A stretch of DNA of 64,000 bases from Rhododendron vialii. Lineage: Eukaryota; Streptophyta; Magnoliopsida; Ericales; Ericaceae. A program made the position numbers and the translations under genes. Location of the stretch: the NCBI RefSeq assembly GCF_030253575.1, contig NC_080563.1, positions 29,675,001 to 29,739,000 of the forward strand. The letters run 5' to 3'. The stretch's first letter is position 1; the number at the start of each line of letters is the position of its first letter. The notes under the pieces were generated by a model, which saw nothing but the letters and a program-made list of their open reading frames with translations, did not search any database and had not been told where the DNA came from. Positions 12,529 to 45,560 of this stretch are shown piece after piece.

Positions 12529-12570
<42 letters not shown>

Positions 12571-15500
12571 AACGCGTTGACAATTGATAGGAAATAGTGA
12601 TGCTACCATTAATGTGTGGACCCACCATGGGCCTAATCTCAACTCTCCATAAACTATGGTTTTACTTGTAAATACGTAATCGATTCTCAAATTATTCTCC
12701 AAAATTTTTAAAATTAAACCCAAATTAGTACTATTATCAAATTACTGTAATTAATAACTCAGCGAACGATCCCTGAAATTAAATGTTGGTAATTAAATGT
12801 GGGTGCAGGGAGCATTAGGACTTTTGGCGATCCCACCAGCATCAGTGATAGGGCTGGGTTTAGTGATCTATGAACTCAAAACAAATGCTGTTGTTAGTTC
12901 GGACAAGAATATTAAGGTAACAACTTTCCTACGTACGTACTTCTCCTTCCAATTGAAGTTAATTTGCGTTGTTTTTGTGACATTGCTTTATGATAGTTAT
13001 TATTAAATACAAGAAAAGTAGTTTTGAAGATCCTAAATTAGTCGAGGTGCACGCAAACTGGTCCCAGACATATTAGTTATGAATAAAAATCAAATAACGT
13101 GAAACTTGTCCCTACTACTCATGAGTGGATGTATGTAATTTCTAGCGTGTCTATTGTCTAAGGAATAGACAAATTGGAACAAGTCGATTTTTAGTATACT
13201 TGATGTTCTCAATGAGCTAAACAAAATGAACAGTTCCGATCATTGAAGTGAGTCTGGAATAAATCATTTCTAGGTTGGATTTGAGAGCACAATTTTAGCC
13301 CGAAGAAGGTTATTTTTTTTAGCTCATTTCAATGATCATGAGACTGTTCCGGAAAAAAAAAATGATGAGACTGTTCATATTTTTAAGATGCCAAAAATCC
13401 AGTTGATTGCAAATCTTTTGATTCAATTTCGAAACACATTTGTATTGCAAAATTGGATGAAGTAGGTTTTGATCAAGTGATGCAATCTTATTTTTGCTAG
13501 ATAAATGTGTTTCCAAAATGAATATATCAAATTATATATATCTAATTAACTTGAATTTTGATTTGCTTGATATATACTCTCAATTACGAGTTAAACACAA
13601 CGAAGGGCCCCAGAGGCGAGTCTGGAAGGAATAATTTCTGGGCTGAAATTGTATTCTCCAATCCATTTGAAGGATGGGCTCCTCCACTAGCTCCCATTTT
13701 ATTCTTAAATTAGTCAAGGTTTAGTTAGACTTCATTCTTCTATAATCGGATTTTATTTATTTATTTTTGTTCGAGACTCGAGAGGATACTCTGTAGCCGT
13801 CTGAGGAGACAAATGAGCTCGCAGATAGAAGTTTAATTTGAATACGCATATAGAAATTAAGTCTCTTTTTTGTCTTTATGATTAACTTTCCAACTAAATT
13901 AGAATAAAATTTGTCACTATAAAACTTGAGAGCGTAAGCAATGACGTGACAAACGAACAAATTTATATCACTGCGTGTAAATTGTTTCGAACACCTAAGT
14001 TATCATCAAAAAATAAAAATGGAGATATTTGGATGGCCTCTTTTGGAATTAGGTTTTCTCCACAAGGCTAGCTCTAGACTACCACGTCCAAATGTGCTGT
14101 TAATTCAACCACCGCTGCCTTTTTTAATAGTTTGCTTATACTATCATATATATATATAGGATCTGAATCCTCTGTGAGGATCATGTGAGAGTTTTCATCC
14201 AAATCGTTCATCCCGACAATTAATGTTCCGGATTGAAAACGAACTTTTTTAAAAATTAATGAGTTAGAGAACAGTTAACTTTTTCTTAGAAGAGTTCGTT
14301 TTTAATTTGGATCATTGATTGCCTCCTTGGATGGTGCGGATTGTATGAAAATCCTCATAGGGAGGAATCCTCATAGAGGAGGGTAAAAGAACAAAATAGA
14401 GTGATGTCTATTGTGCTATGCAAACAAGAAGAAAGTTGTGAAAATATTCATTTCTATTTTAGCTACCAACAAAAACAATAGTATTATATTTTCCAGCTGG
14501 CCCTGTAAACCCAAAAATCAACAACCACGTGCTACGTACCTTTTGAGACAGCTCCACTTGATTAAGGTTATAGCTGTTCAAACCCTGTCTGCACATAAAG
14601 TTACAGAAACAGAATAGTATTATCAGTGGTGGAGTACTCTTGAGTAATAAAGTATAGGAAATTATTATTATTTTCTACACTTTATAATTGGTTTAACTTT
14701 TAAGTTCTCGCCGCATTGCATATATATATAGTTGACAATCTTTTTGAAATGGGGAAGATAAATTTAAAGTTTGTTGGACAAGGTTTCTATCTGATCAGTC
14801 TTGGATTCGAAGCAATATTTTTCTAGTTAACAGGGTTTTGCTACATAGTTGAATTTTTAAAAAATTTGTCCATAATTCCACAAGCTAAACAAACAAATAA
14901 ATTTAATGCAGTTAATTTATGAATACGAAATTAATACATTTAGCCCATCGGCAATAGACATGGATCACAATACCCACACCAATAATTTTTTTCTTTTGCT
15001 CGCATTTTTACGAATCTCTTTCAATATTAGCGTGACATTTGCTCAAGATAATGTGTTAGGTGTTCGTTTGTGGATTACCTATATTTACGGGTTTTCATAA
15101 TGTATTGGTTGAGTGTTCAAATAAAATGTAAACTAATTAAAATTACTACTAGTAAAATTCAAACAAAAAACACCCCGTTCGTTTTGGGGTTTTGGATTTT
15201 GGATTCTAATAATTATCTTATTTCTCTTCAATTATTACTTTTATTTTTCTCTCTATCTCTCGCCAATTATTACTTTATTTTCCATCATTACTCTATTTAT
15301 TTCTACACTCATTATCTATAAATCCAAATCCAAATCCCAAAACAATCGGGGCCAGGCCTTGGTGTACAGCCGCCAGTGGCTTAATCCATTCGGACAGGCG
15401 AGTTTGTTCTGCGGGCCAATATCAAAGAGAGCAGAAGTTGATTCCTAAGCCTAGTTGGTTGGGATTGTAATGGGGCAGTTCCTTTGGCGAACGTTCAATC

Positions 15501-28131: not shown

Positions 28132-28686
28132 GAGAAAATTTCAAAATGGCACCTGAACTTTGCACCAAATGTCACAGAGACACCTGAACTTAAATTTATT
28201 TCAATTAGACACCTGTACTAACAAAATCCCCAAATTTAGACACCTGAACTTAAAATTTTTTCAATTAAACATATGTACTAACAAAATCCCCAAATTTAAA
28301 CCTCCGCCGATATATTTCGTCCCAAAAATTGCTGACATGGCATCTCCAACCTGTTTAAGTTGCCCCATTGCACTGTTTTCAACAGGGGGCGATGAAGTTT
28401 GCCTATGGGTTTCGCTTGGGTGCATCGTTCCTTGTTAGAAACATGTGCAATGGGGCAACTTAAACGGGTTGGAGATGCCATGTCAGTAATTTTTGGGACG
28501 AAATATAACGGCAGGGGTCTAACTTTGAGGATTTTGTTAGTATAGGTGTTTAATTGAAATAAACTTAAGTTCAGGTGTCTAAATTTAGGAATTTTGTTAG
28601 TACAGGTGTTTAATTGAAATAAATTTAAGTTCAGATGTCTCTGTGACATTTGGTGCAAAGTTCAGGTGCCATTTTGAAAATTTCCC
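28132..28686. mobile_element. MULE-type MITE with long terminal inverted repeats
   Basis: A 555-bp element whose arms of about 230 bases are inverted copies of each other, both containing AAAATGGCACCTGAACTTTG near the ends. The 9-bp direct repeat AAACTTAAA flanks it (28123-28131 and 28687-28695), the length typical of Mutator-like transposition. No coding capacity. Confidence 0.85.
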
Positions 28687-29540: not shown

Positions 29541-29618
29541 TCTATGTTGGATCACATTGGCGAAGTTTTTGGTTTCATTTGGTTCCTTGCGTATTGGTTT
29601 CTTGATACTTATTTATAT
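29541..29618. repeat. left part of the 86-bp tandem-array unit, up to the MULE
   Basis: Bases 29583-29618 match 36 bases at 45384-45419 and 45470-45505. This is one unit of the array at 45323-45560, cut by the MULE insertion. The last nine bases, TATTTATAT (29610-29618), are the left copy of the MULE target duplication. Confidence 0.75.
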
Positions 29619-29907
29619 GGGCTCCTTGTTTATAAGGACATACTATAGGGTTTAACAGGCAATTAGTCCATCTAAAGAATTTATAGCGGCTCCAGTCCTT
29701 TTTATCACACGCGTTCTAAAATTACCCATATTACACGCGTTTTCAAAAACATTTCAGAGACAAAAAAACCTAATCGCGGTCTTTCTCGTCGATCCTTTCA
29801 CGGTCGTCATCGTCGATCTTTTCATCGTCGCTGCCATCATCGTTATTGTAGGCGTTCCTTTCACCATCGCTGTCATCATCTTCGCTGGTTTTCGACCATT
29901 TCAACAG

Positions 29908-30790
29908 GTAATTTAACTTTTGTATTCGTTGCTATCGTCATCGTGAACAGCGTCATTCCGATCGTCGTCACTTTCCTAGGGTTTTAGCGTCATTTACTGG
30001 TTTTGTCACTTTCTTTATGTTAGGGCTCATCAATATGTTAAATATTGTGTAATGGAGTATTTGCATGTGTTTACATTGTGATATTCGTATCTCCTACTTT
30101 ATCCCTTGTTGTAAAATACAACCAGAAAAAGTTTTCGATGAAATAACATTATCTCTTTATTAAGTTTGTGAGATACCAACACTATTTATCTGAGATACTG
30201 TTATCTCTTGCTCATTTTTGCCAATACACTATATTTCTGGCAGATAGAGTTATTTGTGATATTAATATCTCCTACTTTATTCCTTGTTGTAAAATACAAC
30301 CAGAAAACGTTTTCGATGAGATATATAACATAATCTCTTTATTAAGTTTATGAGATACCAACACTATTTATCTGACATACTGTTATCTCTTGCTCATTTT
30401 TGCCAATACACTATATTTCTGGCAGATAGAGTTATTTGTGATATTAATATCTCCTACTTTATCCCTTGTTGTAAAATACAACCAGAAAATATTTTCGATG
30501 AGATAACATTATCTCTTTATTAAGTTTGTGAGATACCAACACTATTTATCTGAGATACTATTATCTCTTGCTCATTTTTGTCAATACACTATATTTCTGG
30601 CAGATAGAGTTATTTGTGATATTAATATCTCCTACTTTATCCCTTGTTGTAAAATACAACCAGAAAACGTTTTCGATGAGATAACATAATCTCTTTATTA
30701 AGTTTATGAGATACCAACACTATTTATCTGAAATACTGTTATCTCTTGCTCATTTTTGCTAAGATACTGTTTTCTCATCTGTTTTAACAG
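29908..30790 (+). repeat. leader intron of the protease gene made of four 178-182-bp tandem repeats
   Basis: Units start at 30078, 30256, 30438 and 30616, each opening with GTGATATT-ATATCTCC and containing two or three copies of the GAGATA-N4-TATCTC palindrome. The splice sites CAACAG/GTAATT (29907/29908) and TTTTAACAG (to 30790) suggest that the block is an intron in the 5' leader. Confidence 0.65.
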
Positions 30791-30804
30791 GAAAAAGATT
30801 CAAA

Positions 30805-33800
30805 ATGATACAAAACCCTGAAAACCCTCCTGAAAATTCTGAAAAACCTAGAACATATAAAAGATTCAAAATGATAGCCCGGAAGAAGACTACAAAGAAA
30901 CCACAACATCAAGAAGAAAAAAGCATAAAAACAAGGAGTCAAACAACAAAGAAAAGGAAAGAGGAAGAGACAGAACCACAAATTGAAGAGGAAGAGAGAG
31001 AAGATAAACTCAAGAGCAAAACAAAAAGACAAAAAAGACAAGAAAAAAAGGAGGAACCAGACATAGAAGAGGTGAAGGAAGAAGAGGTTAAACCAAAACG
31101 TTTGCAATACAGGTAACTACTTGGCGTGCCATTCTATACAATAACCTGAAGGTGTTATTTTTTTGAGATACTATTATCTCTTGCCTCATTTTTGCTGATA
31201 TGCTGCTATTGTCTTGTAACTTTTATTGTAGGTCGAATCTTTACAGCATTGTAAGCCTTCTACATGATGTAAAGTTCAATGAAGTACAATCCGAACAAAT
31301 TCAGAAATCACCTTTTGCGAACATGTTGTTTGCAATTACTCAAGGCAGTATTGATGAGCAAATGGTGAAGAAATCTGATCCTGTCCTTATCAAGTTGATA
31401 GAGACATATAAGAGAGGTCAAGCAAAGTTTTCCCTAGCAGGAAAAGATATTCCTCTGACTGATCATGACATTGGTGTCATTTTTGGAATAACATCTGGAC
31501 CGGTGAAGATCCACATCGCAACCCACGGGCGAAGGCCAGACACAGAATTTGCCAATCGAGTCTTTGCTGGGGCAAGCACCATGCACTTTCCAACAATGAG
31601 GGTGACAATTGAAAATATTTTGAAACCTCCCGTCAAGAAAAAGCAGAAGAAGAAGCAAAAGCAAGTATCAGAGATAGAAGCTGCAAAAGATTTGGCACGT
31701 CTTCTGACATTGTACACCATTGGAACACTGTTTTTCCCAACAACAGGTCCAAACCTGAATTGGTCCTACCTGAAGCTTGTTGAGGATTTGGAAAATAGTG
31801 CAAATTACAATTGGTCAATGTTCATCACCAATAATCTTGTTAACGAACTCAACTCCAAGAATCCGGCGATTGTTGGTGGTTGCACCACTGCACTCCTGGT
31901 AAAAATCTTCTACCCTTTCTTGTAGTAAAATATCAACAACATCTGACACATATTTTCATTGAAAACAGTACTGGCTCTGTGAACATACCCACATTATGAA
32001 ACCAGCTCAACAAACTTTTTCAAGATTTATGAAATGAAAAATGAATGAGCTTGCTGCTAAACTGTTGGAGGCACCACTGAGCAGCCTTCCAGAGGGAATG
32101 GTAAGCATCATTACCTATTGGATTTTATTATGTATTATGGTCAAAACTAGAAAACGGTATCTTATCAAAAATAGTGTATCTACCAGAATAAATCAAGAGA
32201 TAATGCTATCTCAAACAATAAACTCTATATAAACACACAAAAAGAAAAAGATACTAGTATCTCAGTCAAATACAGTTTGCAAATAAAATGAGACATAACT
32301 CTATCTTAGTTGAAACATTATATCTCATGAATCTATAATCTGAATTTACCTCTTAACTTCATTGTTCCCTTCTACTCTCAAAGGTCAAACAGGAAGAATT
32401 GGAGCTAACTGAACAGGAGAGAGGGTTGTTTGCAGCTCTAGTCTTGCATGAACAAAAAGGTACACACAAAGAACCCGAAGTCAAAGAGAAAAACCTTACG
32501 GACCAAGAGCCTTTAACCCAAGAAGAAAACCCTCAAGAAGAGAACCAGGATGTTAAGAATTTGATTTTAGAGCTTGAACAACGAATTAAGGTGCTTGAAG
32601 AAGAGAACAATGTCATGAAAGTTGAAATTGAAGATAGGGACAAGAAGATCCAAGAAAGGGATCTGTTGATTGTTGAGTTACGCCAGAATGTAGAATCCCT
32701 TCAACATGAGCTTTCAGGTTATAGAAAACAAAATGCAGATTATACAGATATTGAAAAAGAAACTTGTAGTCTGCATGTTGAGGTGGAGATGTTGAAGGAA
32801 GACATAATCGAAAATGAGGTTGAAATAGGCGGGTTGTATGTTGAGAAGGACATAGCGGAAGAAAAAATTGAAAAGGTGACAGAAGAGTTGCATGACATTG
32901 CAGCACATTGTGTTTCCCAACATTACAAAGATCAGAAGATAATTGAAGAGTTGCAGAAACAAAAAAACAGCTTGTCTGAACAAAAACAAAGCGAGAATGT
33001 GCATCATCATGAATCTCCAATTCATGATGAAGAAGTGACTAAGGAAGAAATAGACCAAATGATCAAGTCCACAATCTCAAGCATTCAAGCAGAACCACAA
33101 CAAACAACGAAGAAGAGATTGAGGAAAGGTCATACTGTGGACCCATCGTCGTTGACAAAGAGAGTGAGTAAGAGGGAAGATAGGAAAGAGAAGAACATGG
33201 AGGATTTTCAAGTCTATTGGAGGAAGAAAAGCACAGAGAAACAAGCAGAGAAAGCAGCTCCAGAACTACTATATATGGATGTTGAAACAACAAAGCTGGC
33301 ACATCTCGTCCCAGAAAATGACAAGATCTTCTTAAATCACATATTTGAGTATGAGAAAGACATCAGGTTAGTAAAAATGCACCAATTTGCTTGCTCAAAT
33401 AGATGTTATTTGTCTGAAATACTGTTATCTCTTGATTCATATTCATTGCTGATGTACTGCTGTTGTCTTATAACTTTGCAGAATTCCTATCTGGGATAAC
33501 GACCTCTTTGATGGTATAGTAAGCTTGCAAGAAGTCATAGAAATCTTGAATAAAAAAGATGTACAAAACACGGTAAGAAAGGCTCCTTGTCTTTCTCAAA
33601 CCGTACCCCTCCGGTACTCTTTATCAATCCCTCGCTTTCCATTAATTCTTAGCTCTTAGTTTATTCGGTTTATTTGGGAATTGAATTGGCTGACATTTAC
33701 ATTGTGATATTACTCTCTTGCTTTATCCACATTTGCATGTGTATACATTATACTACCAGTAAATTCTTTGGATGAGATAACATTATCTCTTTATTAAGTT

Positions 33801-35132
33801 TGTGAGATACTAACACTTTTTATCTGAGATACTGTTTTCTCTCGCTTCATTTTTGTCAATACTCTATATTTCTTCAGGACTGTTACCAATCTTTTGTGCA
33901 TTTAAGTCTCACATGAAATAATGTGTGCAGCTCATCGATTCGTTTACATTCATATTGGAAAGAGAGCAAGGAGATGAAAGTAAAATACTATTTTTCAAAT
34001 CCATATTGTGGGTAAGTAAAGCACTAGTCTCGCATGACTACTTGATCTCTGTATCTATTGCTTAAATACATGTTATTTTTCTGTAATACTGTTATCTCTT
34101 GTTCACATGCACTGTTTTTTTCTCACAAAGAACAACAGATAAGAATATCAAAAACATATTATGTGTCTGAGATACTATTATCTCTTACTTCTCATATACT
34201 GTTTTTGCGCACAAAGAACAAGAGATAAGAATATCTCACGAATTCTATGTTCTGAATTATCCATTAGAAACCATGAGATATGGTTATCTCAACTGGTATA
34301 TGGTATGTATTTTGTTGCATGTAATTTGTAAAACACTTCCTTCTGACAGAGCCTTTTGAAGGACCAGAAAAATGAGATTAGAAAGATGTTCCTTGATGAC
34401 AAGCTGCTAGAACTCATTCAAAAACAGCATGCCTATCGCTACTTGGTTTTCCCCATGAATTCCTCAGGAGGTAATAAAGAGAATGACAACGATCCATACC
34501 ATTGGACTGTCCTGGTTTATGACATTGAGGATGGGCAATGGAGGCATTACAACTCCATCAGACCAACTGGAAGAAAGGCAGATGCATACCTTAAAAATGC
34601 TCGTTTAATGGTAAAAATACTGAGACTTCTTGTAATCCATACTTAAATGACGCAAAAATAATAATAAACAAATATTTAACCTTGCAAATGCAAAAAAGGT
34701 ATGTTGAAGGATTCGTGAAGAAAAATCATACCCCAACATTCATCCTCTCATCACAAAACGAAACAATCTTTGAAAAGCAAAAGTTTGATGCTCTAATAAT
34801 CTCACCTGCATCTCCGCAACAAAGACCTGGAACGTAAGCCAATTAATCTTGTTCAGCATCTTATTTCGATACTACTATGCACTGTGTTATTTCCTGTGCA
34901 CTCTATTTCTATCCTTCTAAACTCTGATTATGACAACTTTTGTAGTGTTGACTGTGGAATTATAGTTTGCTACATCATTGACAAGCTTGCACACGAAGAA
35001 AGCATCCCTGAGTCATTGACAACTGATGAAATCAGAGAATACAGAGTGTTATTGTTGATGAGGTTCCTGTATGATGAACCAAGAACATGGACAGAAGCTC
35101 TTTGGAAAGACCGAAACTTGAAGACTGACTAG
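30805..35132 (+). pseudogene. MULE-borne coiled-coil protein with Ulp1/C48 cysteine protease domain, decayed
   Basis: Nine exons are inferred: 30805-31112, 31232-31898, 31969-32100, 32384-33366, 33482-33572, 33931-34011, 34350-34610, about 34699-34833 and 34946-35132. In order: a Lys/Glu-rich N-terminus, a helical domain resembling DUF1985/PMD (FSLAGKDIPLTDHDIGVIFG), a long coiled coil with TKKRLRKGH-type basic segment, and a C48 protease with His in YHWTVLVYD, Gln and Cys in QQRPGTVDCGIIVC. The usual catalytic Asp position reads Asn (HYNS). Decay: TGA at 32035-32037 in exon 3, and exon 8 is one base out of phase at its only AG acceptor. In Arabidopsis, related MULE genes include Ulp1-like proteases and the VANC anti-silencing proteins; which role applies here is unknown. 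Confidence 0.75.
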
Positions 35133-35307
35133 GTGTTGGAAAGTTGAATAGGACTAGGTGTTGGAAAGTTGAATAGGTATTCTTTTGCTGAATAGGTGTT
35201 CTTTTGTTAAAAATTGACACATATGAATGGTCGACTCCGAACAATTGGAATTCGCCATACCAGGGTTGTACATGAAATGTCTTGGCTGCTCTGTTAGAAG
35301 TACGATA

Positions 35308-36119
35308 GGTATTCTCTTTTGTTAAAACTGACACATATGAATGGTCGGCTCAAAACAATTGGAATTCGCCGTACCAAGGCTTGTATATGAAATGTCTTAC
35401 CTGCTCTGTTTTGAATTACAGTAATTGTTCTTTTGTTTAAAACGATACATATGCATAGTCGGCTCCGAACAATGGGAATAGCAGGTCATCGTTTTGTTAT
35501 GATAACAATTCTGAATCTTTTCATTTGATATATAACTGATGCTGCGAAATAGTCTATCTACCAGAATACAGCTAGAGATAATGCTATCTCAGAGAGAAAA
35601 ATCTGTATCAACACAAAATTTAAAAGAGATAAAAGTATCTCAGCCAATACATTTCGCAAAATAGAATGACAGATAAAGCTATCTCATACAAAACATTCTT
35701 TGTGAACCTTTCATTCAATAGTTGTTCTTTTGTTAAAATTGACACATATGAATGGTCGGCTCAGAACAATTGGAATTCGCCGTACCAAGGCTTGTATATG
35801 AAATGTCTTGCCTGCTCTGTTTTGAATTACAGTAATTGTTCTTTTGTTTAAAACGATACATATGCATAGTCGGCTCCGAACAATGGGAATAGCAGGTCAT
35901 CGTTTTGTTATGATAACAACTCTATATCTTTTCACTTGACACACAATTGATGCTGCGAAATAGTCTATCTACCAGAATAAAGTTAGAGATAATGATATCT
36001 CAGCCAATAAAATCTGTATCAACACAAAAATTAAAAGAGATAACAGTATCTCGGCCAATACATTTCGCAAAATAGAATGACAGATAAAGCTATCTTATAC
36101 AAAACATTCTTTGTGAACC
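35308..36119. repeat. 411-bp tandem duplication between the two MULE genes
   Basis: Positions 35330 (GACACATATGAATGG) and 35741, and 35691 and 36102 (AAACATTCTT), match at a constant 411-base offset. A third, shorter relative of the first part lies at about 35190-35290. Each unit contains two to three GAGATA-N4-TATCTC-like palindromes. Confidence 0.75.
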
Positions 36120-36250
36120 CTAAACCCATAAACTGTAAAACCTAAACATGCTCTGTAAAAACAAAATAAAAGATATATCAATATCTCAGCCAACGTTCAA
36201 CCTTTCATTCAATGTCCAATGAATATGAATCAACAATAGAACACAATGAA

Positions 36251-38676
36251 TCAATCACAAGCTTCCTTACATCTCTTCCTATTATGATTTCCTAACTTCT
36301 TGCACCTGCCACACCTTATTTGCCTCACCTTCTCACCCCTTGATCGGATTCTTGCAACATTGGGTCTACCACGTGGCCTCCTAGTCTTAGGAGGAAGAAT
36401 AAAAGGAAGAATAATAGCAGAATTTTCAGACACTGGTGCAACTCCAAGAGTAGAAATAGGAACAGGATGTATAGGACAATCGTAGCAGAATCGAAAAGCA
36501 TCAGCAGTGTATAATGGATCAATATAATTGGATACATCTATGCCATTCTTCTGAAGAGCTGTGAATGCATGCACACAAGGGAAACCATAGAGCTGCCAAC
36601 GACAACATGTGCATGTCCTGTTTCTTATGTCAACCACAACAGCTGGTAATGAAGACACTTCAAAAACCTCATCACTTGATCCAAACACAGTCCATGTCCG
36701 TCCTTTATTAAAGAACTCTCTCAATTTCGCATCATATTCAGGACACAAAACACTGTTCAATTTTCTTGATAACTGTTTCCTTTCACACATTTGAGTCATG
36801 ATTTGAACCCTGATCGTATCAACACATTTAAGGACTGGCAACTTACGAGCTTCAACAATCCAGTTGTTGAAAGACTCCACAGCATTTGAGGTCATTTCCC
36901 CATATCGTTTACTTGGGAAATATGCATTTGCCCAATTATACACCGGAATGGAAGCAACAAACTCCTTCGCTCTGTCTCCACCGACCTCAAACAATTCGTT
37001 TACACAGTTTTTAAAATCTAATACTGTAGGTGCAAGAGCATAATCATTGAAGAGACTCACTACTCGTTCCCGGAAACCATTAGGTGCTCTTCCTGACATC
37101 CTATCCCTCAAGTTATTCTTCAAATGCTGCAGACAATAAGAATGATATCCGTTTGAGAAAACCTCTGGCACATGCTTCACAAGACCAGTATGGCGATCTG
37201 TTATGAAAGTAAGTTCACGAGCTGACAGAATAGATCTCAACTTCAACAAAAACCAAAGCCAATTATCGTCGGTCTCGGAATCAACAACACCATAAGCAAC
37301 CGGAAACAAGCCTGCCCAAAAAAACAACAGATAACAGTGTCTCAGCTATAACAGTCTCTGTAGCTACCAGAATAAAGCAAGAGATAATGACATCTCAATA
37401 AAAACAGTCTCTACAAACCAAAATAAAGCAAGAGATAACGGTATCTCAGGAAAAATAGTCTCTGTATCTACCATAATAAAGCAATAGATAATGCTATCTC
37501 AGCTAATAATCACAAAACTAGAAAGAGAGATAACCCTATCTCAGTATAAGCATTCTCTGAATTTGAAAAAAAAGAAAAAAACTAACCGTTATCAGCATCC
37601 TTCCCAACGGCTGCGAGCACAGTTCCCTTATATCTCCCTGTCAAAAAAGTACCATCAAGACACAAAAAAGGCCGACAGTAGTTGAATCCTTTGATGCATG
37701 CATCGAATGCCACAAATAACCTTCGAAACCGATTATCTTCACAGCATTCAACGTCCACAACACTACCGGGATTTTTCTCCTTCGCTACCTCCGCATACAA
37801 TCGAAGTTTGTTAAATGACAATGCATAATCACCTTGAGTATCATTGTTCGCCATCTCAACACCTAACCATGCATGGTGATAACCGATTGTAGTACCGTAT
37901 CGTTGTCTGAAGAATCTAACAGCATCTATAGGCTTATACGACGCCTTTGAACGAACTTCATCAAGAACTTCTTCTGCAACAAGCTTTGAAGACATCCGAG
38001 AATTTTTTGAATTACAAATTGTAGCACCACATCTGTGTTCTTTTTCAAGCTCCTTAATGCAAAAAAATTGATTTGATTTGTCTAGAATTGTATGAACAAA
38101 CCATTTACACCCATCTACCTTAAAAGCACACTCAGCTGTCACTCTTGATTGGTCATTCTTCAAATACTTGAACCTAAATCCAACTTCAATTGCATACTTA
38201 CACAAAGATAACCTAAAATCCTTAACACCACCTCTAAATTCTTGACCAACATGACTAATCAAATACGCCCAATCAGCAGAAAGTCTTTTTGTCTTATGAT
38301 GAGGACAAAACTTTTCAAGAGGATCCTCAACAATTTCAGAATGTGAACTACTAGTTACTCCACCATTTCCATTGCTACTACTGCTTTCACCGATTTCAAA
38401 ACGGCTACTAACTCTACAATTACCATCTTCAACTGATACCTCGACACAACGAGCACCATATGCAGCAGCTAAATCCATCATATTACAAAAATCATCATCA
38501 TTCTCAAGGAGTATATTACGATGATCACAAACAGAATACAACAACCTCATTGATACCAAACCATTCCACTTGTTAGAAATACTTCCAATAAGATCCTCAA
38601 ATTGATAACCTTCTGTCACCTTAACAACAAGACTATAGGATCCATATTTGCACAATAGAAGAATAGAAGAATACAT
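36251..38676 (-). CDS. mudrA-like MULE transposase
   Basis: Two exons, 38676-37587 and 37311-36251, joined by a GT-AG intron in phase 1, give 716 residues. I start at ATG 38676; the frame is open a little further, but a likely acceptor (TGTTTGCAG) lies just upstream, suggesting a leader intron. Order: PB1-like N-terminal region, Ser-rich linker, MuDR DNA-binding zinc region (about 170-230), and an RNase H-like DDE core with D341 in CLDGTF, D402 in ITDRHTG, the C423-X2-H426 motif and E509 in SNAVESF. A SWIM finger (CTC...CVH) and a C-terminal zinc knuckle in a basic tail follow. No stop or frameshift was seen, so it may be functional. The intron holds five GAGATA palindrome copies. Confidence 0.9.
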
Positions 38677-39312
38677 TTCAACTTCAAAAACCAGTTCAGT
38701 CTGCAAACAGATAACATTATATCAGAATAAACAAATCAGATACACATATCTCAAAAAAGTAGTCTATCTATGAGAACAAAGCAATAGATAATGTTATCTC
38801 AACAAAAACAGTCTCAGTATCTACCAGAACAAAGAAATAGATATAATGCTATCTCAGCAAATAAACAAAAATAGAAAGAGATAACAGTATCTCAGAAAAT
38901 ACAGTTCACTGTGATACACATATCTCAGCAACAATAATTTCTGTATCTACCAGAATAAATCAATAGATAATGTTATCTCAACAAAAAAACAATCTCAGTA
39001 TCTACCAGAATAGAACAATAGATAACGCTATCTCAGCAAATAAATTCTATAAAACACAAAATAGAAGAACACGACAAAAATCAAAACAAATACTGAGATA
39101 GAGAAGAACATAGCGACAGAGAAACATCAGCACAGAGATCGCGAACAGAAAACACTCCGAAGACAAAAGATCGTGATCCTGTTCGAGAGAGATCGTCACA
39201 AAGCGAAACGAGATCGTGATCGCAATACAGAAACGAAATTGTGAAAGTGATCGTGATCCAGAAAAGAGCTGTGATCGTAGGAAGAGAAAGAGAGAACTGA
39301 GCTGTGATTGCG

Positions 39313-39358
<46 letters not shown>

Positions 39359-39413
39359 CACCAAAAACGAGCTCGATCTCGTGATTATTCTGCTCGAGAT
39401 CCAGAAATGGTGC
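38677..39413 (-). other. leader region of the mudrA gene
   Basis: Seven or so GAGATA palindrome copies lie at 38704-39034, probably in a leader intron. Beyond that are purine/pyrimidine-rich leader sequence and an (AG)n microsatellite at 39314-39355. The MULE is then interrupted by the LTR retrotransposon; its right end resumes at 45106. Confidence 0.55.
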
Positions 39414-39906
39414 TGTGACATCCTACTTTTTTTCCGGTAAAAAAAAAACTTTTGACCCAAATAATTAAATCTTTCATTTCTCTTTTTCAAACTTCTTAAT
39501 AAAATAAAATACTTCTATTTTAAATTTCATAATATCAGGGCTATTTTTCTAATATGTGTTTTTATACTAAATGTCAGTTTATAAGATGTGTATAGTTATT
39601 TATCCGTGTGAGAGAGTTTTAAGGGTTGTGGGAGAGTGGGTCATTATCTGCATATATAAGTGTTGAGAGACCTAGGTTATTTTAGTTTCTCTAGAGAATT
39701 GTGAGAGCTAAATAGTGCGGTGGCGTGGGAAGGTTTTCACCGGAGCTGTGATTTTTAGGTAAGTCTTCTAATTAATTTCTCTTAGATATTATATTATGTA
39801 ACTTACCCTTTAGGCTTTTACGATCATATATTGGAATACGGGTTTTTGTTGTTTGAGAAGTGAATCGGTGGTACGGGTTTTTGTTGTTTGAGAAGTGAAT
39901 TGGTGG

Positions 39907-39945
<39 letters not shown>

Positions 39946-41509
39946 GTGCGTGCATGTGCCAGCCGTGTGTGCATGCCGTGTGTGAAGGTGAGAAGTAATG
40001 GTGGTATTCAATTGCAAAATAAGTTTCTGGTGATTTGCACGTTGGAGTATTGTTGATTGGTGGCACTTGATTTTAGGTTTAGGAATTAATTATTAGTAGT
40101 CGTATAAGTTTAGGCATTGACTAGTTACAGTACAGTAGATCATTCACACACTTTTAAATTTATTTGTTTCTTCTGTTTGCAATACAGACTAGTGGATTGT
40201 TATCAACATTGCAATTGGTTGCATTCTCTCAGACTTAAAGTGAGTAGTTAAGCATGTGATCCCTTCTTTTGGAATCCTCTTGAGCCTATCGATTCTTTAC
40301 AGTTCGTTATTGGTTGTGATTCGATGATAATTATTCCTATTCGTTGCTCTCATAATTATTGGCAATTGTCGTACCCTTTGGCATACAAGGTTCATTGATT
40401 AAAATTAATAGGATTGTTGGATTGCCCATATTTTTCTTGTTGCTCCATAATATTATTGTGACTCTGCAACGGCACGGAGAATAATCCTGGTGCAGGTGCC
40501 TCCGGCTCGCCGTTGTTCTATTTGTGTTTGGGACCATAGACTGTGTTGATATTTATTAAAGTCCAAGGAAAAGACCCGTGAGATATCGTGGTGACTTTGG
40601 CCACTAGGGAAAAGACTTGTGAAATACCCTGTGACTCTAGTGCTCAACGGATAGGGAAAAGACTTGTGAAATACCCTGTGACCCTATTCCGGATCGGCTT
40701 ATGGAAAAGGTCCCAGGCGCCATCCTGTGGTGACTTTAAGTACGATGTTGGATCCAACAGGCAAAGCCCTGAGAAAATATTTGGCATTTGGAAATTAGTA
40801 ATTATGGTTCTCACTTTGGTTCATACTTCTGTTATTGTTGTTCGTCGTTCGGATATTATTGGATTCATTGTTTGATATAATTATTGTGGTGATTCGATTA
40901 TTGTTGTTGCTATTCGTTAATCCGTTATTCATCTTGTGGATACTATTTGTTGAGTTGTTGATCTCTTTGTTCAATATTCGGTTTGTTGATAGTATTCGTT
41001 GAACCATCGATCTCTATTATTAATTTGAAACCATTTCTTTGAAGCCCACAATAATCTTTCGTTGAAAGTATGCCACTTTGTATTACCCTTAGCATGCTTA
41101 ACTACTCACTGAGCTCGTCAGCTGACGGATTTATTCCACATTATTTTTCAGGTTAGTTCATGGAGCATTATAGTGGACTCTGTGGCATTGTTGGGATCTT
41201 CTGTTTGGACCTCTAGGACGTCTGCATTCTTATTTCTTTTCTATTGTCAAAAGCTTCCGCACTTTTATTTATTAGCTTCCGCACTTTTATTTATTAGCAG
41301 TTCATTAGGAAATTTGGGATTGGAAAATATGAGATATCGTGTCATTTGCTATGAAAAATATTGGTTTCGTGTCGCACATTTATTGTAATAAAATATCCAG
41401 TTTTTTTTTATTTGTTTCAAGTTGCTAAAAATATTTTTAATTAGGCTTCGTGTCCCATGATTGCTTCATGGTACACGGCCGGTCATGCGCCCGGATTTGG
41501 GGTGTGACA
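39414..41509 (+). repeat. 5' LTR of the gag-only element
   Basis: 2096 bp, TG...CA ends. Contains a (GA)n run at 39907-39942 and a duplicated block GGGAAAAGACTTGTGAAATA-CCCTGTGAC at about 40608-40683. Identical in length to the 3' LTR. Confidence 0.9.
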
Positions 41510-41513
41510 AAAG

Positions 41514-41530
41514 TGGTATCAGAGCTTAAG
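41514..41530 (+). other. primer-binding site, initiator-Met tRNA type
   Basis: TGGTATCAGAGCTTAAG, four bases after the LTR end, is the usual plant complement of the initiator-methionine tRNA 3' end (TGGTATCAGAGC). Confidence 0.88.
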
Positions 41531-41680
41531 TTTCGATTTTTATACTTGCATTCATCATCGCATCTTGTCTTAGATGAGGTCTAGGTCCCCAGAGTCCCAT
41601 AGGCTTGTGAGTTCATCTTTTGTTTGTATAATTCTGCATTTAGCTTATTGACTGTAATATTATATTTTCAAGGTTAGGAA

Positions 41681-42928
41681 ATGGTTCGTCCACGTCATAA
41701 TACTAGGTCGACAAATGAGGGTACATCAGTTCGTGGCCGAGGTCGGGCAACTCCTATAGTTCGTGGTCAGGGCACTCCTTTAGCACGTGGTCGTGGCCGC
41801 ACCAACCCAATAGGTCGTGGCCGAGTTAATGATGAGGCTGAAGTTTTTGATGATGCAGTTGAAACAGAAAATGATGCTAATCTAGCCGACCCCACTGCGA
41901 ATCCAACTGATCCAATTACCGAAATTATTGCAAATTCTAGTACACCCACAGGTTTTGTTGACCCAGTAGCTGCTGTTCAAGCCTTTCAGACTTTTATGGG
42001 ATTATTTGTTGGGCATCAAGCCCAAGTGGCACCAGCAACTGCATCAAGGTCTCTGACATTGGATAAAGGCAATACTTTTGATAGATTTCTGAAGACTAAT
42101 CCACCGTCTTTTATGGGGACTGATAAGCCATCGGATGCTGAGGCTTGGCTATTGCAAATGGAAAAGATCTTTGATGTGTTGGGTTGTTCTGAGGCCCAAA
42201 AGGTGTCTTTTGCGGCATATAAGCTACAGGGGGGAGCTGAGCATTGGTGGCGGTCAGCAAAGCAACATTACAAAGACAAACAAGATGAATTGGTTTGGAG
42301 CAGTTTCAAAAAGGATTTTGAGGAGAAGTACATTCCACCCGCAGTTAAAGACCAAATGCGGACTGAGTTTTTAGCTTTAAGGCAGGGAAATATGTCAGTG
42401 GCGGAGTATCAGCAGAAGTTCGATGAATTGTCTAGGTATGCAGGAGTTTTGGTGGAAAAGGAAACAGATAAGGTGTGGCATTTTCAAAGGGGGCTTCGGT
42501 TCGATATTCATGGGAGAGTTTCTTTACTTGACGTTAAGACACTACCTAAACTTGTGACTAAAGCATTGACAGCAGAGAATGATTTGAAAGAGGAGAAGAT
42601 GAGTGAGGAGCGCCAGTTTAAGAGATCTAGAGAATGGTGGCAATTAGGACAGAGCAGTGAGGGTAGTAACTCTAACAAGAGGACTTGTACGCCAGCGCAG
42701 TCAAGTGGTGATAGGAGTGAGCAGATTGAGTGGTTATGCAATCGTTGTGGGAAATCTCATTATGGTTATAGTTGTGATGGCTCGCCTAAGTTATGTTACA
42801 ATTGTGGACAACCTGGACATGTAGCTGCTCGTTGTAAGGGAAAGGAAGATGCAGGTAATGATATTGATGCGTCTGAGGGGCAAGGTGCAATTCATTTTAT
42901 CGTATCTAGTAGAAATATCATGGTTTAA
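41681..42928 (+). CDS. Gag protein of the non-autonomous retrotransposon
   Basis: 415 residues from ATG 41681. Order: Arg/Gly-rich N-terminus (repeats of RGRGR), a retrotransposon-gag helical domain (PPSFMGTDKPSDAEAWLLQ ... GGAEHWWRSAK ... EKYIPP ... QGNMSVAEYQQKFDELSRYA), a basic Ser-rich hinge, then a CCHC knuckle CYNCGQPGHVAARC (about residues 372-385). The ORF is intact and ends before any protease motif. It would package element RNA, with enzymes supplied in trans. The type resembles Tekay/Del chromovirus gag. Confidence 0.92.
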   Translation: MVRPRHNTRSTNEGTSVRGRGRATPIVRGQGTPLARGRGRTNPIGRGRVNDEAEVFDDAVETENDANLADPTANPTDPITEIIANSSTPTGFVDPVAAVQAFQTFMGLFVGHQAQVAPATASRSLTLDKGNTFDRFLKTNPPSFMGTDKPSDAEAWLLQMEKIFDVLGCSEAQKVSFAAYKLQGGAEHWWRSAKQHYKDKQDELVWSSFKKDFEEKYIPPAVKDQMRTEFLALRQGNMSVAEYQQKFDELSRYAGVLVEKETDKVWHFQRGLRFDIHGRVSLLDVKTLPKLVTKALTAENDLKEEKMSEERQFKRSREWWQLGQSSEGSNSNKRTCTPAQSSGDRSEQIEWLCNRCGKSHYGYSCDGSPKLCYNCGQPGHVAARCKGKEDAGNDIDASEGQGAIHFIVSSRNIMV

Positions 42929-42996
42929 TTCATTAGTAGGCCGTGTTAAATTGTGGTTTAGCTATTTTTCTGAATTTCGAGGACGAAATTCTTTTT

Positions 42997-43009
42997 AAGA
43001 GGGGAATGA
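42997..43009 (+). other. polypurine tract
   Basis: AAGAGGGGAATGA sits directly before the 3' LTR. The preceding TTTCGAGGACGAAATTC is a word often seen before the 3' LTR in Tekay/Del chromoviruses, supporting the lineage. Confidence 0.85.
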
Positions 43010-43502
43010 TGTGACATCCTACTTTTTTTCCGGTAAAAAAAAAACTTTTGACCCAAATAATTAAATCTTTCATTTCTCTTTTTCAAACTTCTTAATAAAA
43101 TAAAATACTTCTATTTTAAATTTCATAATATCAGGGCTATTTTTCTAATATGTGTTTTTATACTAAATGTCAGTTTATAAGATGTGTATAGTTATTTATC
43201 CGTGTGAGAGAGTTTTAAGGGTTGTGGGAGAGTGGGTCATTATCTGCATATATAAGTGTTGAGAGACCTAGGTTATTTTAGTTTCTCTAGAGAATTGTGA
43301 GAGCTAAATAGTGCGGTGGCGTGGGAAGGTTTTCACCGGAGCTGTGATTTTTAGGTAAGTCTTCTAATTAATTTCTCTTAGATATTATATTATGTAACTT
43401 ACCCTTTAGGCTTTTACGATCATATATTGGAATACGGGTTTTTGTTGTTTGAGAAGTGAATCGGTGGTACGGGTTTTTGTTGTTTGAGAAGTGAATTGGT
43501 GG

Positions 43503-43541
<39 letters not shown>

Positions 43542-45105
43542 GTGCGTGCATGTGCCAGCCGTGTGTGCATGCCGTGTGTGAAGGTGAGAAGTAATGGTGG
43601 TATTCAATTGCAAAATAAGTTTCTGGTGATTTGCACGTTGGAGTATTGTTGATTGGTGGCACTTGATTTTAGGTTTAGGAATTAATTATTAGTAGTCGTA
43701 TAAGTTTAGGCATTGACTAGTTACAGTACAGTAGATCATTCACACACTTTTAAATTTATTTGTTTCTTCTGTTTGCAATACAGACTAGTGGATTGTTATC
43801 AACATTGCAATTGGTTGCATTCTCTCAGACTTAAAGTGAGTAGTTAAGCATGTGATCCCTTCTTTTGGAATCCTCTTGAGCCTATCGATTCTTTACAGTT
43901 CGTTATTGGTTGTGATTCGATGATAATTATTCCTATTCGTTGCTCTCATAATTATTGGCAATTGTCGTACCCTTTGGCATACAAGGTTCATTGATTAAAA
44001 TTAATAGGATTGTTGGATTGCCCATATTTTTCTTGTTGCTCCATAATATTATTGTGACTCTGCAACGGCACGGAGAATAATCCTGGTGCAGGTGCCTCCG
44101 GCTCGCCGTTGTTCTATTTGTGTTTGGGACCATAGACTGTGTTGATATTTATTAAAGTCCAAGGAAAAGACCCGTGAGATATCGTGGTGACTTTGGCCAC
44201 TAGGGAAAAGACTTGTGAAATACCCTGTGACTCTAGTGCTCAACGGATAGGGAAAAGACTTGTGAAATACCCTGTGACCCTATTCCGGATCGGCTTATGG
44301 AAAAGGTCCCAGGCGCCATCCTGTGGTGACTTTAAGTACGATGTTGGATCCAACAGGCAAAGCCCTGAGAAAATATTTGGCATTTGGAAATTAGTAATTA
44401 TGGTTCTCACTTTGGTTCATACTTCTGTTATTGTTGTTCGTCGTTCGGATATTATTGGATTCATTGTTTGATATAATTATTGTGGTGATTCGATTATTGT
44501 TGTTGCTATTCGTTAATCCGTTATTCATCTTGTGGATACTATTTGTTGAGTTGTTGATCTCTTTGTTCAATATTCGGTTTGTTGATAGTATTCGTTGAAC
44601 CATCGATCTCTATTATTAATTTGAAACCATTTCTTTGAAGCCCACAATAATCTTTCGTTGAAAGTATGCCACTTTGTATTACCCTTAGCATGCTTAACTA
44701 CTCACTGAGCTCGTCAGCTGACGGATTTATTCCACATTATTTTTCAGGTTAGTTCATGGAGCATTATAGTGGACTCTGTGGCATTGTTGGGATCTTCTGT
44801 TTGGACCTCTAGGACGTCTGCATTCTTATTTCTTTTCTATTGTCAAAAGCTTCCGCACTTTTATTTATTAGCTTCCGCACTTTTATTTATTAGCAGTTCA
44901 TTAGGAAATTTGGGATTGGAAAATATGAGATATCGTGTCATTTGCTATGAAAAATATTGGTTTCGTGTCGCACATTTATTGTAATAAAATATCCAGTTTT
45001 TTTTTATTTGTTTCAAGTTGCTAAAAATATTTTTAATTAGGCTTCGTGTCCCATGATTGCTTCATGGTACACGGCCGGTCATGCGCCCGGATTTGGGGTG
45101 TGACA
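43010..45105 (+). repeat. 3' LTR of the gag-only element
   Basis: Partner of 39414-41509. It is followed by AAAG, the same four bases that follow the 5' LTR inside the element, then by non-element sequence. Confidence 0.9.
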
Positions 45106-45322
45106 AAAGCCCTATCCAGTAATGGCGCGTTGGGTTGAAAGCAGCAGGGAACAAAATTTAAAAATAACACATTATATATACACACCAGTCAGGGCATTTT
45201 GGTCTAGAAACGGACTGTAGACCTAATAAATGTTACAGTAATGGACCTTCACAACTCTTACACATTGGGCTGGACTAAACACCCAAAAACACCTTTAAAA
45301 CGGACTCTAGCCCAATTTACCG
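45106..45322. other. right terminal segment of the MULE
   Basis: 217 bases between the retrotransposon and the right copy of the MULE target duplication. Non-coding; contains GGTCTAGAAACGGACTG and CAAAACGGACTCTAGCCC-like words. By position it is the outer part of the MULE separated from 39413 by the nested insertion. Confidence 0.55.
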
Positions 45323-45560
45323 TATTTATATAAGGAAAAAAAAAAGCAATAGATTCTTGAAGAGGTACATCCTTGAATGAAATTTCCTTGCGTATTGGTT
45401 TCTTGATACTTATTTATATCAGGAAAAAAAAGCAATAGATTCTTGAAGAGGTACATCCTTGGATAAAATTTCCTTGCGTATTGGTTTCTTGATACTTATT
45501 TATATCAAGAAAAAAAGCAATAGATTCTTGAAGAGGTACATCCTTGAATAAAATTAAAAA
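45323..45560. repeat. 86-bp tandem array that received the MULE
   Basis: About two and a half units of sequence like TTCCTTGCGTATTGGTTTCT...TATATCAGGAAAAAAAAGC...TAGATTCTTGAAGAGGTACA. Units start at 45384 and 45470. The first, partial unit begins at the right copy of the target duplication; its missing half is at 29583-29618. Confidence 0.8.

Follow-up and report, generated by a model that had tools for sequence, protein, structure and literature searches.

The closest described systems to the one analyzed here are the VANDAL transposons of Arabidopsis, whose VANC proteins carry a DUF1985 domain and target non-coding motifs that are often tandem-repeated and differ between families, as set out in the sections of Hosaka 2017 drawn on here (PMC5735166). 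The motifs given there for the VANC21/VANC6 systems of VANDAL21/VANDAL6, YAGTATTAY and AGTTGTCC/AC, are not palindromic. VANC genes with an Ulp1 domain also exist, and their elements recognize each other's motifs, according to excerpts of a 2026 review that further present the Ulp1 domain of such elements as conserved among eudicots (PMC13317346). An extract of a grapevine paper adds that, in KI-MULEs, the Ulp1-domain gene runs in reverse to the transposase (PMC2528002). Here, we describe a stretch of 64,000 nucleotides from Rhododendron vialii (Ericales; NC_080563.1, forward-strand positions 29,675,001 to 29,739,000), hereafter the window, in which a Mutator-like element (MULE) carries a transposase gene, A, and a second gene, U, with a 16-bp palindrome, GAGATA-N4-TATCTC, densely scattered over its non-coding DNA. 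By analogy, the element is best read as an Ericales member of the kind to which VANC and Kaonashi elements belong, with a dyad-symmetric target.

A dyad in the non-coding DNA of one MULE family

A scan of the whole window returned 16 exact GAGATA-N4-TATCTC sites, all inside 30192-38893, where 100 shuffles of the window gave an expectation of 0. With up to two mismatches allowed, there were 45 sites against a whole-window shuffle mean of 2.95, and the MULE held 43 of them (16, 21, and 6 at 0, 1, and 2 mismatches). An earlier sequence-only reading of this DNA, which spoke of at least 16 exact sites and a similar number of near copies, is confirmed (16 exact, 27 with one or two mismatches); it saw the motif nowhere else in the window, where two strays, each with two mismatches, lie outside the MULE. 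Under the gene models built in the present analysis, from which the exon and intron assignments derive, none of the 43 sites overlapped the 5000 coding bases and all 43 fell in the remaining 4780 bases of 29641-39420. The same reading had placed no motif in the exons or the outer ends, and both claims were borne out: the outer left 459 bp (29619-30077) and the MULE right of 39034 contained no site at zero to two mismatches.

The sites are distributed over the leaders, most introns, and the spacer of the two converging genes. The U leader has 12, and its 178-bp tandem array (30076-30759, plus strand; 3.8 units) carries up to three per unit. Within the U gene (30805-35132, plus strand; nine exons in our model), intron 1 (31113-31231) has one site, at 31165; intron 3 (32101-32383) has three; intron 4 (33367-33481) has one, with a single mismatch; intron 5 (33573-33930) has two, at 33774 and 33826; and intron 6 (34012-34349) has four, at 34083, 34169, 34222, and 34275. 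The short introns 2, 7, and 8 have none at zero to two mismatches. Seven sites lie in the spacer between the genes (35133-36250), five in the A intron (37312-37586, minus strand; sites at 37328-37542), and eight in the A leader (38708-39034, minus strand), A itself occupying 36251-38680 on the minus strand in two exons.

The arms of the motif are held at a fixed distance. In the window element, 53 of the 64 GAGATA half-sites on both strands have a partner, with at most one mismatch, at a gap of exactly 4, as do 36 of the 43 in a diverged copy of the same family (L034), compared with none of 29 when one element was taken from each of the four sister families, II-V. The sites were oriented through repeated rounds of scoring that covered the motif and its flanks, seeded with the analyst's own guess; the resulting consensus was GAGATAAYRNTATCTCA, a 16-17-bp dyad. 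The centre, earlier described as variable, has A as its first base in 34 of the 43 oriented sites, and in 42 of them the second arm is followed by a further A, a position that played no part in site choice. From 34222 onwards, all 22 sites point in the same direction, whereas 18 of the 21 before it point in the opposite one, the three exceptions being the sites of U intron 3. All 13 sites of the A intron and leader are antisense to A, and in a family III element (L028), 48 of 49 words of that family are antisense to the gene on their side; this bias may be a by-product of A-rich words yielding U-rich plant introns. As a separate observation, an extra half-site, GTATCT, begins 21 bp ahead of several dyads, two helical turns off, in the context GTATCTACCAGAATAAATCAA followed by GAGATA or TAGATA (32176-32212, 38943-38979, and similar places).

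Variable surroundings had been offered as an argument against copying, which the repeats do not support, as many sites sit in the 178-bp array, in a 411-bp direct repeat of two copies within the spacer (35315-36119), and in units of ~51 and 55 bp. Even so, units in separate introns and in both orientations have in common a 16-17-bp core with drifted flanks, a comparison biased partly by the choice of sites with good arms. The motif is dense, nearly confined to the non-coding DNA of family I, as we term the family of the window element, and strictly spaced as a dyad.

Genome-wide (13 contigs totalling 532.6 Mb), the host has 492 GAGATA-N4-TATCTC sites, compared with 24 of the reversed pattern, and the oriented motif GAGATAAYRNTATCTC gives 214 + 185 = 399 strand matches, with some sites counted on both strands, against 2 + 1 = 3 for its reversed control, in keeping with the genome-wide enrichment that the initial proposal had called for. 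Among the matches listed, which reach into contig 5 and comprise 87 distinct oriented sites, 84 are clustered (at least two within 10 kb), making 17 groups including three singletons. The eleven groups fetched (R1-R5 and six short stretches) all contain at least one family I end, and two further groups coincide with transposase matches (C2:29.16M and C5:30.51M), so that 13 of the 17 groups among the matches listed are tied to family I; the other four, three of them the singletons, are not included in that count. When any centre is allowed, isolated sites become more frequent, making up 10 of the first 50 among the matches listed, and most of them have A/T-only centres.

The motif had been assigned to one MULE and in fact belongs to a multi-copy family. 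R3 is a full-length sister copy (98%). R1, R2, R4, and R5 retain both ends and 9-bp target-site duplications (TSDs) but are shortened or interrupted; the TSD is exact in R1, R3, R4, and R5 and has one mismatch in R2. The short elements R2, R4, and R5 (1603-1799 bp) retain 16, 13, and 17 sites, respectively, at zero to two mismatches. The six short stretches have a left end in five cases, a right-end match in two, and both in one; none has both ends plus a TSD.

We then compared related transposons, drawn from a transposase search with 96 matches (from 62 of 1222 candidates scored) that were sorted into families by identity. The 10-kb stretches compared were two more of family I (L026 and L034), two each of families II, III, and IV, and one of family V. 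By tblastn, A and U were found in all nine, although in family V the U match was limited to the N-terminal part plus a small C48-like trace. Exact motif I counts are 16 in the window, 18 in R3, 18 in L026, and 13 in L034, in line with the expectation that related full-length copies would hold it, and 0 in the seven non-I elements. Family III has instead the word ACAGATAYA (49 and 49 in its two copies, 0 in nine others), and family IV has ATAACGTTATA (12 and 15 in IV, 1 in each II copy, none in the remaining seven elements). In family V, the word is TGGT-N6-ACCA (7 in its one copy, 0-2 elsewhere; Markov means 0.14-0.35). Discovery and counting used the same elements for the family III, IV, and V words; for III and IV, the second copies and the genome counts (ACAGATATACCAA, 181 vs 22, and ATAACGTTATATAA, 402 vs 18 strand matches) serve as partial checks, and the two family III copies are not independent because their words are nearly alike.

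The words lie mostly outside protein-aligned bases: none of 16, 18, and 18 family I sites overlaps them, the L034 alignment, which crosses introns, covers 1 of 13, and there are 0 of 12 and 0 of 15 in family IV and 0 of 7 in family V. In family III, 6 of 49 and 8 of 49 do overlap, five of each in one cluster that we judge to be an intron traversed by the alignment. Between family I and families II and III, A is 57-64% identical and U 27-47%, by segment. Families I, III, and IV carry different words, as does V in its one copy; the motif is present in non-autonomous copies, and U is homologous across families. Separately, L034 (G000:C8:24740801-24750800) has an extra word around CGTATCGATA, with seven copies of the 10-mer, which is possibly a second code emerging.

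The element and its two proteins

The MULE had been delimited as 30078-39034 and actually reaches from 29619 to 45322, between exact 9-bp TSDs (TATTTATAT) at 29610-29618 and 45323-45331; candidate ends near 29637 and 39575 were dropped once sister copies revealed these limits. Its left and main part (5' GGGCTCCTTG...) occupies 29619-39413 by sister-copy comparison, and its right end (...AATTTACCG 3'), at 45109-45322, follows from 97% identity between 45109-45332 of the window copy (W) and 12536-12760 of R3, with the last base set by the TSD. Judged by eye, the two ends form no long terminal inverted repeat (TIR). The right end is split from the body by a nested long terminal repeat (LTR) retrotransposon of ~5.7 kb (approximately 39411-45109, plus strand; gag open reading frame [ORF] at 41678-42925; LTRs of ~2.1 kb), which is a very recent insertion, given that its LTRs agree at 2102 of 2103 aligned positions. 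No third gene (VANB) was evident among ORFs of at least 100 aa, the ORF list being the extent of that search. To the left of the MULE, at 28134-28684, lies a 247-bp inverted repeat whose arms are 91% complementary with 57 nt between them, resembling a miniature inverted-repeat transposable element.

A is an intact 716-aa MULE transposase with Pfam PB1, DBD_Tnp_Mut, MULE, and SWIM domains. U has a charged N-terminus, a DUF1985-like domain (exons 2-3), a coiled coil, and an Ulp1-like C48 domain, and its nearest named relative, P0001 from Rhododendron vialii, is 96% identical over 91% of the searched part. A second homologue search, run with an alignment, contributed one more protein, P0005, which the comparisons here leave aside. 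The earlier description of U as DUF1985/Ulp1-like stood for Ulp1, with C48 in P0001 scoring 22.3 bits against a cut-off of 20.7 (and matched by two of the four homologues scanned), while DUF1985 is reached only through homologues: the corresponding domain matches PF09331 at 2e-6 in family II and 1.2e-4 in family III, under the curated cut-off, and the family I domain is 35% identical to that of II (242 aligned positions) and 41% to that of III (229). A genome-wide DUF1985 search gave 23 matches at E ≤0.001, all under the cut-off, which adjoin six family II transposase loci and lie ~10 kb from one family IV-like locus. Family I U also has a weak PMD match (0.0023-0.006), and a PDB sequence search with P0001 returned coiled-coil matches only (E 0.04-0.94). 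Read piecewise, the C48 domain of families I-IV retains His and Asn (HW...HYNS) and Cys (DCG), which we take, from Ulp1, to be the catalytic places. Canonical Ulp1 has Asp where U has the Asn of HYNS (C48 exons in the window at 34350-34610 and 34699-35132), and this Asn is common to families I-IV (including L027, L028, and L029).

What may read the motif

Taken with the Arabidopsis precedent, these features make it likely that U reads the motif and lifts silencing. In such a system, a two-gene MULE family without long TIRs would keep its non-coding DNA studded with a family-private dyad, which U, probably as a dimer, would bind densely over leaders, introns, and spacer. Binding would remove host silencing from U's own element and also from short non-autonomous relatives that keep motif arrays, as VANC does for VANDALs. 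The arrays would spread through tandem duplication, and the code would diverge between families along with U.

Several results weigh against this reading. First, the window copy of U is probably broken, because its exon 3 is interrupted by a premature TGA (~32035), where P0001 has Trp, and its exon 7/8 junction (34611-34699) is ill-defined in the gene model. Second, neither family I U nor family IV U matched PF09331 directly in Pfam scans, and AlphaFold gave no usable structure for the DUF1985-like exon (predicted local distance difference test [pLDDT] score of 36.7). Third, between W and L034, identity at 23 well-aligned sites is 247/262 in the arms and 832/907 in the flanks, and over all aligned positions it is 0.841 in arms, 0.822 in flanks, and 0.769 in other non-coding DNA; several W sites have no L034 counterpart, and in nine non-autonomous left ends, the arms are not consistently better conserved than the flanks. 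Since the arms are not clearly conserved above their flanks, the case rests on the unit-to-unit comparison, the dyad spacing, and the family-specific words. Fourth, 10.5 bp is the best spacing period over all pairs of sites in both W and L034, with none of 2000 jitters as strong, whereas on distinct neighbour spacings, p is 0.13 and 0.36, and the phasing is absent in families III and IV; we regard helical phasing as suggestive at most. Finally, no clear dispersed word was found in the two copies of family II, where U and tandem arrays are present.

Transposase A could be the protein that binds the sites, for transposition or autoregulation. It is encoded in every sampled family and intact in the window copy, and MURA of maize MuDR is said, in the portion of the source cited, to lower TIR methylation of non-autonomous copies (PMC10398659). 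However, the outermost 459 bp on the left and the MULE right of 39034, where transposase sites would be expected, are the parts that lack the motif, and the motif is wholly different between families although A remains 57-64% identical between I and II or III, compared with 27-47% for U. We therefore consider a role for A as the reader unlikely.

An improbable alternative is that no reader exists and that the sites are neutral minisatellite-like arrays that slippage spread and coding constraint excluded from exons. Plain tandem arrays are indeed present, and the lack of a clear excess of arm over flank conservation between copies is what such arrays would lead one to expect. Against neutrality stand the core kept across introns and orientations while the flanks drifted (a contrast due in part to how sites were chosen), the half-site gap fixed at 4, and the occurrence in families I, III, and IV of a separate core word for each, repeated over many separate non-coding segments.

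Host factors, such as GATA-type proteins acting on the inverted GATA pair to drive transcription of the element, would account for AGATA in the motif I arms and in the family III word. The family IV and V words, however, have no GATA, and the oriented motif is nearly always clustered, with 13 of 17 groups linked to family I among the matches listed, which makes this explanation highly improbable. A role for the sites as RNA hairpins within leaders and introns is barely credible. Folding one or two examples of each word gave hairpins of 6 bp for family I and 5 bp for family V, at -5.7 to -4.3 kcal/mol, but the family III word stays unfolded and the family IV word barely folds (-0.2). In addition, the spacer accounts for seven sites, and among the 27 imperfect sites, 21 have a single mismatch, which is thus uncompensated in the hairpin arms.

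Returning to U as the reader that lifts silencing, a bolder extension, which we put forward tentatively and on balance doubt, is that Rhododendron MULEs use at least three, and probably four, mutually exclusive codes, of which several would be dyads recognized by DUF1985-coiled-coil-Ulp1 dimers, with the Ulp1 domain (conserved Cys-His-Asn) serving as a putative sequence-targeted SUMO protease that would strip a SUMO-dependent silencing mark. How VANC undoes silencing after binding is named as an open question in the sections of Hosaka 2017 cited above (PMC5735166), and the SUMO-protease reading, if true, would answer it for VANC-like proteins. If U does read the motif, sequence-specific transposon anti-silencing would extend from Arabidopsis to asterids, with several private codes per genome. 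The families would then offer natural protein-target pairs for studying DNA reading by DUF1985 proteins, and both code change without loss of function and Ulp1 as the working end would become addressable. Further, VANC has been proposed for targeted epigenome editing in those same sections (PMC5735166), a use to which short orthogonal pairs of tag and reader might also be put.

Comparison with VANC and Kaonashi elements

VANC systems reportedly arose in eudicots and diversified through gain and loss of DUF1985, DUF287, Ulp1, and motifs, an account attributed to Sasaki in 2022. The same work is said to hold that the sequence and density of the motifs, as well as their helical periodicity, are important and that non-autonomous copies share the motifs, its motif data reportedly coming from Arabidopsis only. 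Judged from its sequence, the layout of the Rhododendron family appears to match that of VANC/VANDAL in most respects examined, with DUF1985 membership being indirect. As in VANDALs, a transposase is paired with U, short motifs crowd the non-coding DNA, many of them in tandem repeats, and are rare elsewhere, and related families carry different motifs. Unlike the Arabidopsis motifs, which are not palindromic, the candidate family I target is a gapped dyad. Further, U ends in an Ulp1-like domain, and the host belongs to the asterids (Ericales).

Family I resembles Kaonashi (KIU) in being a MULE without TIRs whose Ulp1-domain gene runs in reverse to the transposase, and it differs in having a dyad as its word, the comparison being with published descriptions of Kaonashi. 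No published account of an Ericales case was found in the open-licence literature, where queries without Rhododendron or the motif as terms make this weak evidence of absence. Because VANC systems are already described in Hosaka 2017 and VANC genes with Ulp1 in the review (PMC13317346), the kind is known, and the Rhododendron family would be a new member of it, from the Ericales, having a dyad as its target and several codes side by side.

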